A stretch of DNA of 64,000 nucleotides from Cryomorphaceae bacterium 1068 (GTDB lineage: Bacteria > Bacteroidota > Bacteroidia > Flavobacteriales_D > Cryomorphaceae): assembly GCA_027214385.1 (NCBI GenBank), contig JAPVXR010000003.1, positions 248,001 through 312,000 on the forward strand, read 5' to 3'. Of this stretch, positions 1,046 to 6,475 are shown in pieces. Both the position numbers and the translations under genes were made by a program. Numbering within the stretch: position 1 is the stretch's first letter; each line of letters begins with the position of its first letter. Under the pieces are notes generated by a model. The model saw only the letters and a program-made list of their open reading frames with translations, searched no databases and was not told the DNA's origin.

Positions 1046-4000
1046 TCATTCGTTAAGACCTAGCAGTGCTTTTAATTCAAATTGCTTGATAATAATATTG
1101 GCCTTGGCGCGAGTAAGAGTGGTAAGACTTTCGAGGTTTTTCTTTTGAACTTCAGAGTAGTCATTGTAAGCCAATAATCCATTTTTAAACGCATCCGTTT
1201 TTATGCGTAGTTCTTCCTGGCGAAAGTCGTAGGCACGATTTGCAGTATTCAGAAGATTAAGAGAATTTCTTAATTCTAAAACTTTCGTTTGGATATCAAT
1301 TTCGGCTGATTGCTTTGACTGCTCAAGCTGCAGGCCAGCCTGCTTGAGCTGAATATCGGCCTGTTTTACATCCATTTGTTGTTTACCCCACTGAAGAATA
1401 GGCCAGCTCAAGGTTGCTCCAACGAAAACATTGTTTCTCGGAACGATGGGTAAATTCTCCAAGTAGAATCCTTGGGCTGTAAAAGTCAAATCAGGGATAA
1501 GCTGGTTCTTGTAGTAGCTCACACCACTCTGCGCCAGTCTCTCGGTAAGCTGGGCATTTTTAAACTGATAATTATTGAGCACCAAACTGTCATCAGCAGC
1601 TAGAAACAAGAGGTTCTGAATAGCAACGGTATCAATTGGAATATCCGTAGCTGACCATATGGAGTCGCTTTTGAAACTAAGTATTTGATTGAGCTTCATA
1701 AGGTAAGTCGCTCGATCAATCTTGGCCTGTTCTATTTGCGTTTTCTTATCCAATAAGTCTGCAGTAAGCCCTAGTTCATAGAGCTTTAAAACTTCACCTT
1801 CTTTAATGGCACTTTCTGCTTGCCTCAGTTGTTCTGAGACCAAATCAGACTGAGCCGTCATGTTCTCAATTTTCATGGATTCAATGACCATCCCTGCGTA
1901 TAGCTTGGCGACGGCTTCTTTGATCTTACTCGAAACCTCGTTGTATTGATTTTCGAGAATTGACTTTTCGTCTTCTTTTACATCTGACGCAGCATTGACT
2001 TTAAAAATTTGTGTGATAGGCTGATAGATACCCAGATTGGCCATCCCAATAAAACGGTTGCTCTCGGGGATAGTAAACTCCGTTCCCAAGCCAATGGGCG
2101 AAATACCTCCAATCAGTGGTAGATCGGTTATGGATATTTCCACGTCGGTGGTTCTTTCAGAATTGTAGTACCAAAAATAGCCACCGTCTAAATTAACCTT
2201 GGGTAAAAAATTGGTTCGGACCTGATCGATTTCGATTTGCTTTTTTTCGATTTCCATCTGAAGCAATTGCAAGTCCTTGTCTTCTTCCTGTGCAATTAGG
2301 ATGCATTCTTCTATACTAATTTCCTGAGCCTTGGCTGGAATAGAAACAACAAAAAGTAGGACAGTTGTTGCCACGACTTTTGCTGAAATACCTTTGGAAA
2401 CCTTACCGAATTTCCAATACAGCACTGGAATAACCAGTAGTGTCATTACCATTGAGAATATGAGCCCAACTGCAAGGACAGTGGCCAAAGGAGCCCACAA
2501 TGGTGAGCCTGAAATGATCATGGGGGTTACCCCAATCGCTGCGGCCATTGTTGTTAAGAAGATTGGTCTGATTCGTCTCTTGCCCGCATTTATTGCGGCA
2601 GTTTTCATGTCCATGTTTTGGGTTTTTACCAATTCATTTGCATAATCTACCAGTATGATGGAGTTTCTCACCGAGACTCCGATAAGGCTTGCCAAACCTA
2701 CAAAAGCCGTGAATCCGAAAGGATATCCCGTAATGTAAAGACCGAAGAAGGCTCCGAAAATACTCAGTGGAATGGCGGCCAGAACAATGAATACTTGATT
2801 CAAGTATTTGAACTGAATAAGAATGACAATGAAGATGATGAAAACGCTGTAAAGAATAACCTGATTCATCTCAGCAAAGGTCTCTCTTTGGCTCTCGTCT
2901 TCTCCTCCTACACTCATAGTATACCCCGCAGGAAGTTCAAACGCTGAAAGCTTATCGTCGATTGAACTGAGAATAGTTGAGGGCAGAACAGTGCTTGCCG
3001 CTTGTGACTGAACGGTTAGCGTGTGCACACCGTTTCTTCTTAGAATATTGGATGCTTCCCATTCTGTTTCAATTTCAGCTAGCTCACTTAAGGGTACGCT
3101 TGCTCCGCTGATGGGCGAGGTTAAGTAAAAGTTGCGCATACCGTCTATAGACTTTGACTGTGCCACACCATCTTGAATGATGATGCTCAAAGGATTGTCT
3201 CCTTCATAGATCTCTCCAACCGGCAGTCCTTGATAGGCTACCGCTAATTCGCGCGAAATGGCACCATCCGAAAAACCTAGCTGGTTCGCAGCAGACCGAT
3301 TCGTCTCAACCCGAATCGTTGGTCTGTTTTCATAAAAATCAGAAACGACATGAGATGAATTGGTCGCATTGGAAAGGATTGATTTCAAGCTATCCCCTAT
3401 GGCTTGCAGGGTAAGTAGGTCGGGGCCTGAAAGCCTCAATTCTACCGGTGCTCCTACCGTTGATCCCTGTTGCATTTTCTTAACGATAACATCCATTTCA
3501 GGAAACTGAGCTCCAATTGACTCCTCTAGGTCGAGAACCATAGACTCGGTATCGTCTATACTATGCGTATTTATTAAGATTTGAGCCTGATTTGACTGTG
3601 GGAATTTGGCGGCATAGTTATAATAGAACCGAGGTGCTGATGTTCCTACGAAAGATGCGTAGTCTTCAATCCGTTCATCATCTTTAATGTAATTTTCAAC
3701 CTTTTTGACGTAACCATCCATTTGATTGATAGATGTCCCTTCAATCGCACGTAATTCAAGAACGAATTGATCTCTTTCCGCCGCAGGGAATAGCTTTTGA
3801 TTGAGGAGCAGAAATACACCCCCACCTGCAATGACTGAGATCAAAGCAAAACCGAAAATCAAACCAGGTTTTCTAAAGGAGAAGTCGAGCGCTTTGTCAA
3901 ATCCAATCTGAAGATAATCCAGAAAGCTCTTTCGACTGCTGGCTTTTTTCTTCAGGCCACCCTTGATGAACGTATAGCATAGATAGGGCGTGAGAAACAT

Positions 4001-5437
4001 GGCCACTACAAATGAGGCATTTATCGCAATCGCCACCGTAATTGGTAAGGACTGTATGAATTCGCCCACGTAACCGGTAAGAAACAGGAGAGGAGCGAAG
4101 GCACCAACGATCGTAAGTCCTGCTGTAAACATGGGGATCTTAAGCTGATCTGCTGATTTCCATGCCGCTGAATAATTATCCATGCCTTCATCTAGTTTCT
4201 CAACGTAATTATCGGCAATCACGACTGCGTCGTCCACCAGCATTCCCAGCACTACAATGAGCGACGCGAGAGAAACTTGTTGAAGCTGAATTCCCACTCC
4301 GTCCAGAATGGTAAAAGTTAAGGCCACCGTCACTGGAATGGCAGCTGCAGCAATTATTGCCACACGGAACGGTAGCAATAAGAGAATCACTACCACCACG
4401 GCTATGATCGCTATGAAAAACTCACGTATAAAATCATTGATACTCTCAGAAACATTCTGTGGTTGGTTTACAATTTCTACGATCTCTACATCATCTGGGA
4501 TCTCTGATTTAAAACCATCAATTACACTCTCGACCTCTTTCCCAAAATCCACTATGTTGAAACCATTCTGCATTTCGAGCGACATCAGTACGCTTGAGGT
4601 GCCATTGACTCTGATGAATTGTTTCGGTTCTTCATATCCGCGTTCAATGGTCGCGACAGAAGCCAAATTAATCGCACCGCCGAGTGGATTCACTCCAATA
4701 ATTTGGTTCCTTAAATCCTCAATATTCTCAAAGCGATTAGGATTTCTAACATTTAAGGTCATGCCGTCCGAAGTCACTTTGCCGGAAGGAAACACGGTAT
4801 TGTCTCCCTTGATAGCTGCTAATACTTGCGGTAAAAAGATTTTATACTCACTCAATTTTTGGTTGTCAATATTGACGAAGAAACATTCCTTTTCGGCGCC
4901 TATCTTTTTGATCTTTGAAAGTGATCTTATGGCCCTCAACCGATCACCGAGTTCTTCCAGATATGTTTCTAATTCGCGGCTATCTCTCTTGTCGCTTTGG
5001 AAGCTAATCAACAGCGCAATGGTGTCGCCAAAATCTGATTCGACAATCGGGCCCACCAGTCCAATCGGAAGTTCAGTTAGTTTCAACAGATTGAGTCTAT
5101 GTTGGAGTTTGGACCAAAAGAGATCAGCATTGGTTACGAAAGACTCAAGCTCTACAACGATGTAGAGCACACCTTGTCTGGAATTTGCGTAGGTTTTTTC
5201 TTTTCGTACCTCTTCGTATGAAAATAGAATTCGCTCAATTTCTTCTGTCACCTCATTATCCATTTGCGAAGCAGATGCTCCGGGATAGGCGGCAACAATG
5301 AGGCCTTGTCGAATATTGAACTTAGGGTCTTCTCGCCTTGGCATTGTAAGCAAGGCGTATATCCCGAAAGCAAAAATGAGGAATGTAATACTCAGTACAA
5401 CCTGTTTGTTGTCGAGTGCATTTTTGATAAAAGACAT
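1046..5437 (-). CDS. RND efflux pump fused to a TolC-type outer-membrane channel
   Basis: One 1463-residue frame holding two components of a tripartite efflux pump. Residues 1 to about 1015 are an RND permease: N-terminal helix, periplasmic porter domain, and the proton-relay aspartates D402-D403 in helix 4 (GMLVDDAVVIADN). The Asp pair resembles the AcrB (HAE) group more than the heavy-metal CzcA group. After helix 12 come a basic stretch (KFGKVSKG) and a hydrophobic segment ending PAKAQ, a good signal-peptidase I site with the cut predicted between A1037 and Q1038. Residues 1038-1463 are a TolC/OprM-like factor with long heptad-rich helices. I infer cleavage into an inner-membrane pump and an outer-membrane channel. 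The start abuts the stop of the adaptor gene. RND-TolC fusions are known in Bacteroidota, best among CzcA-like pumps. Confidence 0.9.
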   Translation of the reverse strand: MSFIKNALDNKQVVLSITFLIFAFGIYALLTMPRREDPKFNIRQGLIVAAYPGASASQMDNEVTEEIERILFSYEEVRKEKTYANSRQGVLYIVVELESFVTNADLFWSKLQHRLNLLKLTELPIGLVGPIVESDFGDTIALLISFQSDKRDSRELETYLEELGDRLRAIRSLSKIKKIGAEKECFFVNIDNQKLSEYKIFLPQVLAAIKGDNTVFPSGKVTSDGMTLNVRNPNRFENIEDLRNQIIGVNPLGGAINLASVATIERGYEEPKQFIRVNGTSSVLMSLEMQNGFNIVDFGKEVESVIDGFKSEIPDDVEIVEIVNQPQNVSESINDFIREFFIAIIAVVVVILLLLPFRVAIIAAAAIPVTVALTFTILDGVGIQLQQVSLASLIVVLGMLVDDAVVIADNYVEKLDEGMDNYSAAWKSADQLKIPMFTAGLTIVGAFAPLLFLTGYVGEFIQSLPITVAIAINASFVVAMFLTPYLCYTFIKGGLKKKASSRKSFLDYLQIGFDKALDFSFRKPGLIFGFALISVIAGGGVFLLLNQKLFPAAERDQFVLELRAIEGTSINQMDGYVKKVENYIKDDERIEDYASFVGTSAPRFYYNYAAKFPQSNQAQILINTHSIDDTESMVLDLEESIGAQFPEMDVIVKKMQQGSTVGAPVELRLSGPDLLTLQAIGDSLKSILSNATNSSHVVSDFYENRPTIRVETNRSAANQLGFSDGAISRELAVAYQGLPVGEIYEGDNPLSIIIQDGVAQSKSIDGMRNFYLTSPISGASVPLSELAEIETEWEASNILRRNGVHTLTVQSQAASTVLPSTILSSIDDKLSAFELPAGYTMSVGGEDESQRETFAEMNQVILYSVFIIFIVILIQFKYLNQVFIVLAAIPLSIFGAFFGLYITGYPFGFTAFVGLASLIGVSVRNSIILVDYANELVKTQNMDMKTAAINAGKRRIRPIFLTTMAAAIGVTPMIISGSPLWAPLATVLAVGLIFSMVMTLLVIPVLYWKFGKVSKGISAKVVATTVLLFVVSIPAKAQEISIEECILIAQEEDKDLQLLQMEIEKKQIEIDQVRTNFLPKVNLDGGYFWYYNSERTTDVEISITDLPLIGGISPIGLGTEFTIPESNRFIGMANLGIYQPITQIFKVNAASDVKEDEKSILENQYNEVSSKIKEAVAKLYAGMVIESMKIENMTAQSDLVSEQLRQAESAIKEGEVLKLYELGLTADLLDKKTQIEQAKIDRATYLMKLNQILSFKSDSIWSATDIPIDTVAIQNLLFLAADDSLVLNNYQFKNAQLTERLAQSGVSYYKNQLIPDLTFTAQGFYLENLPIVPRNNVFVGATLSWPILQWGKQQMDVKQADIQLKQAGLQLEQSKQSAEIDIQTKVLELRNSLNLLNTANRAYDFRQEELRIKTDAFKNGLLAYNDYSEVQKKNLESLTTLTRAKANIIIKQFELKALLGLNE

Positions 5438-6475
5438 CTATTCAACTTTTATGGGTGTACCATCCAATAAATCAATGGGAGGGTTGACTATAAGTTCATC
5501 TCCCGGGTTTAAGCCAGTAGCCAGAATAGCGTTATCACCAACAATCCTCTCTGGCACCACTCTTTGCTTTCTGGCAATTCCGTCGCGGTTTACAAATACA
5601 AATTTCAACCCGTTGGGATCTGACTTTACATTGGAAACAGGAACTTGAATCACGGAATCCGTTGCGTGCTCCTTGACTTGTACGTTACAAAGCATGCCGT
5701 CTTTCAATTTCAGGTCTTGATTGATTATGGCAACAGAGGCTTCGTAGGTTCTCGTAAGCCTTGAGGCAGATGGGCTAATCTTATAAATCGTTCCATACAA
5801 GGTGTCTCGAATTGCAGGGATCTCAATGGTGCATGAATCATTGAGGTCAACCAAGTAAATGCTCTTTTCAGGGATTCCCACCTTAGCATAGACAGATTCG
5901 GCATTGATTACGGAAATCACAGGCTGCCCTTGCTCAACCCCGCTGCCTTTGCGGGCCCATATGCGTTGTACTATACCGTCAATCGGCGACTTTATTTCAG
6001 TGTAGGATCTCTTGTTTTGATAAAGCTTGTAGTTGGCCTGTGCCTCAGCTCTTAATAGTTTGATTTTTTCATATTCTGCTTCCGGTAAGCTTCCTGAAGC
6101 ATACATATTCGACAGTCGATCATATTGATCATTTGCTTCGTCAAGCTTTGACTTGGCAATGCTTAGCGCCTGATCATAGTCAATGGGATTTAGCTTTGCT
6201 AAATTTTGCCCTTCCTTTATTTCATCCCCTTCTTTTACCAGAATATCGGAAATCTTGCCGGGCACTAAAAAGGAAAGCTCGTGCTGAGAAGAGGCCGTGA
6301 TTTCTCCGGATAGATTCATCACAGGATGCACACCCTGTACTTTTACAATCTTCGATTTTACTACTACATCGGCTTTTACCGGCTCAGGACTATTCCCACA
6401 ACTTTGGAGTAATATGAAGAACAGTGTGATACCGCAAACGTTGGTGCGAATTGGTTTCTTTGGGATAAGAGGCAT
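5438..6475 (-). CDS. Efflux adaptor (membrane fusion protein), lipoprotein
   Basis: Periplasmic adaptor of the HlyD/AcrA family that should bridge the RND and TolC parts encoded by the next gene. The 345-residue product has a lipoprotein signal with lipobox LLQSC (C26). After it come a lipoyl-like half domain (about 65-95, with the VKEGDEIKEGQ turn), a coiled-coil hairpin (about 95-140), the second lipoyl half (SPIDGIVQ), and the beta-barrel and membrane-proximal domains. Its stop codon is followed directly by the ATG of the RND-TolC gene, so the two are surely cotranscribed and probably translationally coupled. No regulator gene is adjacent. A sequence close to the phylum's -7 box, TAAGTTTA, lies upstream on the minus strand. 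Confidence 0.92.
   Translation of the reverse strand: MPLIPKKPIRTNVCGITLFFILLQSCGNSPEPVKADVVVKSKIVKVQGVHPVMNLSGEITASSQHELSFLVPGKISDILVKEGDEIKEGQNLAKLNPIDYDQALSIAKSKLDEANDQYDRLSNMYASGSLPEAEYEKIKLLRAEAQANYKLYQNKRSYTEIKSPIDGIVQRIWARKGSGVEQGQPVISVINAESVYAKVGIPEKSIYLVDLNDSCTIEIPAIRDTLYGTIYKISPSASRLTRTYEASVAIINQDLKLKDGMLCNVQVKEHATDSVIQVPVSNVKSDPNGLKFVFVNRDGIARKQRVVPERIVGDNAILATGLNPGDELIVNPPIDLLDGTPIKVE

Follow-up and report, generated by a model that had tools for sequence, protein, structure and literature searches.

The minus strand of the window, by which we mean the whole 64,000-nucleotide stretch that was analysed, carries at 5437..1046 a single open reading frame, running from ATG to stop, which encodes a 1463-residue fusion of an RND permease with a TolC-type channel (Pfam ACR_tran at residues 4-1010 and OEP up to residue 1460). 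Its parts are the permease (residues 1-1010; 2408..5437), a joint (residues 1011-1037; 2327..2407) and the predicted mature TolC-type outer-membrane channel with both OEP repeats (residues 1038-1463; 1049..2326), all on the minus strand. An earlier note on this DNA, which left out the strand, had described a frame leading from permease to TolC without a stop, and this description is borne out by the single ORF together with both Pfam domains; as no stop interrupts the frame, recoding or a frameshift at the joint need not be invoked. The calculated masses are 162 kDa for the full-length protein, 114 kDa for residues 1-1037 and 48 kDa for residues 1038-1463. Directly upstream on the same strand (5438..6475) there is a periplasmic adaptor gene (RND_mfp; TIGR01730, 178 bits against a cut-off of 94.9), whose product carries a lipobox-like LLQSC and whose stop codon is followed immediately by the ATG of the fused gene. 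The two are best explained as an operon of two genes for tripartite efflux, the first encoding a lipoprotein adaptor and the second, the fused gene, the permease-channel protein. PADLOC gave no match, and neither did a phage search with the joint and the channel part as query.

The permease part belongs to the HAE-1 class of RND permeases, with a full-length ACR_tran match (residues 4-1010, model positions 2-1020 of 1021; E 4.5e-174, 581 bits against a cut-off of 28) and twelve hydrophobic segments. Among solved permeases, those closest to it in sequence are TriC (6vej, E 8.5e-130) and MexK (E 4e-123), HAE-1 pumps of Pseudomonas for which the alignment spans residues 10-1008 of the fused protein and whose solved chains (~1020-1031 residues) have no channel part. 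The Asp-Asp pair in TM4, placed at D402 and D403 by the earlier note and found there, aligns with the TriC pair, and an arginine in TM10 is common to the two proteins (VRNSIILVDY in the fused permease, IIRNSVILV in TriC); because this residue is an arginine and not the lysine of AcrB (K940), the permease is TriC-like rather than AcrB-like. Scores fell far short of the cut-offs for the AcrB/MexB subfamily (TIGR00915, 336 against 940 bits), RND_permease_2 (NF033617, 492 against 1250 bits) and the CusA/CzcA heavy-metal RND family (TIGR00914, 334 against 701 bits). The designation 'AcrB-type' proposed earlier is thus right as to the class, HAE-1, but not as to close kinship with AcrB, given that TriC and MexK are nearest and TIGR00915 falls short of its cut-off.

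In the C-terminal part, OEP matches in two stretches ending at residue 1460 (E 1.6e-36, 126 bits against a cut-off of 22), and a profile of the channel part built from 16 sequences has E. coli TolC as its best match (E about 1e-27, over about 350 residues). A phmmer search with the channel part alone as query found no solved relative, and an AlphaFold model of the channel part, made with 6 sequences, reached a pLDDT of 51, a confidence too low to support either a fold search or geometric arguments.

The same fusion is found in Algoriphagus aestuarii (63% identity), four Flammeovirga (58-59%) and two Persicobacter plasmids (46%), preceded by an adaptor gene where looked at; the nearly identical length and layout in these records exclude an assembly error as its source. 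Persicobacter carries its fused pump (L064, L065), which is annotated only as a permease, on secondary replicons of very large size (380-859 kb). A TriC-like fused frame with 34% identity and the joint PTARA/QEA (here and below the slash marks the putative cut) is also present on plasmid 1 of Gemmatirosa kalamazoonensis (L066, Gemmatimonadota). Among the 392-394 sampled genomes of the phylum this genome is the only one with the TriC-type fusion, and a sample of 299 genomes from the order contained just one further genome with a related permease, which is unfused. The genome of the present gene also has two CzcA-type fusions, L003 (C22) and L004 (C16), with joints LKA/Q and ASA/Q; with one of these as query, the phylum sample yielded more than 50 fused frames from many families (about 55 examined, the two included). 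C22 also carries, near the CzcA-type fusion, another RND frame of 1286 aa.

Besides the 12 RND helices, the hydrophobicity profile of the fused protein has an extra peak at residues 1016-1037. In accordance with the order basic, hydrophobic, PAKAQ given in the earlier note, the joint consists of a basic n-region (GKVSKGISAK), a hydrophobic core (VVATTVLLFVVSI) and a c-region PAKA followed by QE, and the predicted cut site lies between A1037 and Q1038, residues that are numbered correctly there. We assessed the joint by hydrophobicity, charge and pattern. Relative to Algoriphagus and Flammeovirga, identity is 68% and 64% in the permease and 56% and 47% in the channel, but only 17% and 27% in the joint, where positive charge, a hydrophobic core, a small residue at -1 and Q at +1 are nevertheless kept; joint ends of this plan are AKA/Q, SKA/Q, LLA/Q, SNS/Q, SSG/Q and SWG/Q. 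A plan that is kept despite such low identity looks like that of a signal peptide under selection.

The whole set comprises 64 fused proteins (8 Bacteroidota TriC-type, 1 Gemmatimonadota and 55 CzcA-type), and in all 64 a small residue and then Q come after the hydrophobic stretch, 59 fitting a strict pattern and 5 (FKA, MQA, MYS, AKS and LPA) being recognised by eye. Homologues of all three groups thus share a hydrophobic joint with an AxA-type end, as the reading in the earlier note requires. Strict AxA is not the conserved feature; for the most part, positions -3 and -1 hold small residues and position +1 holds Q, as the ends in SNS, SSG and SWG indicate. Strict small-x-small-Q follows the joint stretch in 59 of 62 fused proteins, as against 33 of 983 (3.4%) other hydrophobic segments of the same proteins, and thus exceeds chance. 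When the residues at the end of the joint are permuted at random, the pattern still arises in 34% of cases, so that a single joint is weak evidence and the case depends on conservation across the set, within which the counts for CzcA-type fusions are not independent owing to their shared descent. Among 29 scored representatives (60% identity), Q occupies +1 in all and -1 is A in 21, S in 6, G in 1 and T in 1. The region before the core has a mean of 4.8 K/R against 1.2 D/E and is net positive in 58 of 59, and the uncharged hydrophobic stretch has a median of 19 residues over all joints. Glutamine at +1 is the Bacteroidetes rule, holding for a mean of 71% of signal peptidase I substrates (PMC5837995). 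With its basic n-region and hydrophobic core, the small residues at positions -3 and -1 and Gln at +1, the joint of the present protein has the features of such a Q-rule substrate. Both signal peptidase I and a glutaminyl cyclase of the plant type are encoded in the genome.

Judging from these sequence features, we consider it very probable that the protein is a polyprotein, in which signal peptidase I would cut an internal signal peptide to give a pump of ~114 kDa and a channel of ~48 kDa. The C-terminus of RND permeases is cytoplasmic, and the joint would therefore enter as a signal peptide, its positive end inside. The course of translocation, cleavage, cyclisation and assembly set out here, as well as any substrate of the pump-channel product, is what we infer. 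Ribosomes would make a single 1463-aa chain, whose first 1010 residues would insert as a 12-helix RND permease ending in the cytoplasm and whose next ~27 residues would act as the internal signal peptide, the basic stretch remaining inside while the hydrophobic core would pass into the translocon, forming a thirteenth helix for a time, and the channel part would be exported. Signal peptidase I would then cut between A1037 and Q1038, leaving a channel that starts with QEISIEEC and opens directly with the first channel helix region; the new N-terminal Gln would probably be cyclised, the 48-kDa channel would reach the outer membrane as a trimer, and the 114-kDa pump would remain an inner-membrane protein to which the signal peptide stays attached as a tail.

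A stretch with a median of 19 uncharged residues could also cross a membrane and persist there as an uncut thirteenth helix, in which case one 162-kDa chain would be anchored in the inner membrane with its channel part reaching the outer membrane. We hold this to be very unlikely, since small-x-small/Q and the positive-inside charge are conserved where the sequence otherwise is not, and since the two parts are separate proteins in related pumps. Geometry argues against it as well: in OprM the channel N-terminus lies at the equatorial domain, at mid-height of the ~100 Å periplasmic barrel (PMC8277102), so that the few residues between an uncut helix and the channel presumably could not span the distance from the inner membrane. 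We give almost no credence to cleavage by some different protease, or to a lack of processing owing to a degenerate channel part, for which no direct support was found: the predicted site is one that signal peptidase I would accept and agrees with the Q-rule of the phylum, and the channel retains both OEP repeats, the TolC match over about 350 residues and 47-56% conservation.

As to the origin of the proposed signal peptidase I-processed polyprotein, the closest unfused relatives of the permease are L049 and L050 (49%), L051 to L063 and a Parabacteroides permease (L067). In these the permease ends with a stop and, in most, the channel gene follows at once or after a short gap and starts with an ordinary signal peptide, the end of which is followed by Q, as in L049, where the permease is 49% identical and the separate channel begins with MNTVKINILILSMVFAFSGVFNSAQA/Q. 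Because the separate channels carry a signal peptide of the same type, the fusion looks like the result of stop-codon loss between neighbouring permease and channel genes, with the channel's signal peptide retained. In L015 and L053 another frame comes between the permease and what follows; at L053:4559-5335 (plus strand) it is a patatin-like frame (GGGxRGxxHLGVL, GASAGA) between an unfused TriC-like permease and the channel gene, and at the matching place on the minus strand of L015 a patatin-like frame lies directly after the unfused TriC-like permease.

In 13 of 28 non-redundant fusions a Met precedes the hydrophobic core (e.g. MKSVTTVIV), which is likely a relic of the old start codon. This relic-like look, and an ATG retained at joint position 1012 in Flammeovirga, would be consistent with the channel being made separately, or also separately, by internal initiation at the old start codon, the fusion being partly bypassed. 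Such initiation seems improbable, given that the joint of the present gene has no in-frame ATG (only GTG at 1005 and 1022), that Algoriphagus has no joint ATG either and over half of the non-redundant fusions lack a Met there, and that cleavage of the signal peptide would in any case fall at the same site.

In a quickly built tree of 57 permeases, some of whose branches are long, five transitions between the fused and the single state are required. The Bacteroidota TriC-type fusions group together there with support, separately from the CzcA-type clade. L095 and L096 lie inside the fused CzcA clade yet are split, with a channel that has its own signal peptide, suggesting that split and fused forms are interchangeable. 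The Gemmatirosa fusion groups with the unfused L049 and L050, which implies a separate fusion or a split; for this fusion, a separate origin or transfer are the candidates.

Extending the reading of the joint as a cleaved internal signal peptide to the phylum, we think it likely that many Bacteroidota RND pumps are polyproteins from which signal peptidase I frees the channel by cutting an internal signal peptide of the Q-rule type. This arrangement would have arisen at least twice (CzcA-type and TriC-type) and would give 1:1 synthesis of components destined for two membranes. If cut as proposed, a single bacterial polyprotein would deliver each of its halves to a different membrane with their synthesis ratio fixed, and the proposed cut can be checked from N-terminal proteomics of Bacteroidota. 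Fusions of this kind may carry an annotation as permeases and nothing more; the channel then goes unnoticed, and the size and location of the product would be misread.

Among known systems, the CzcA/CusA-type fusions of Bacteroidota likewise encode the permease ahead of the channel in a single frame, about 1420-1475 aa long, and their joint too is basic, then hydrophobic, then small-x-small/Q, but their permeases form a different clade of the tree from the TriC-type; most of the sampled CzcA clade is fused, whereas the TriC-like fusion is rare. A cleavable-looking joint is therefore commoner than the earlier note supposed and not peculiar to the present gene. The CzcA-type fusions are already known, and a literature search of open-licence papers found no description of RND-TolC fusions with an internal signal peptide; the joint seems to be the undescribed part. 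E. coli TolC is encoded by a separate gene and has its own N-terminal signal peptide, in contrast to the channel fused to a permease here. A literature search for the FbcH polyprotein of Bradyrhizobium japonicum found no paper. FbcH is a cytochrome b/c1 polyprotein that is cut at an internal signal peptide into two subunits, and it likewise joins an inner-membrane protein through an internal signal peptide to an exported partner. For an internal cut such as the one predicted here it provides at least one precedent from a different system. FbcH differs in belonging to a respiratory complex and not to efflux, and both of its products remain at the inner membrane.
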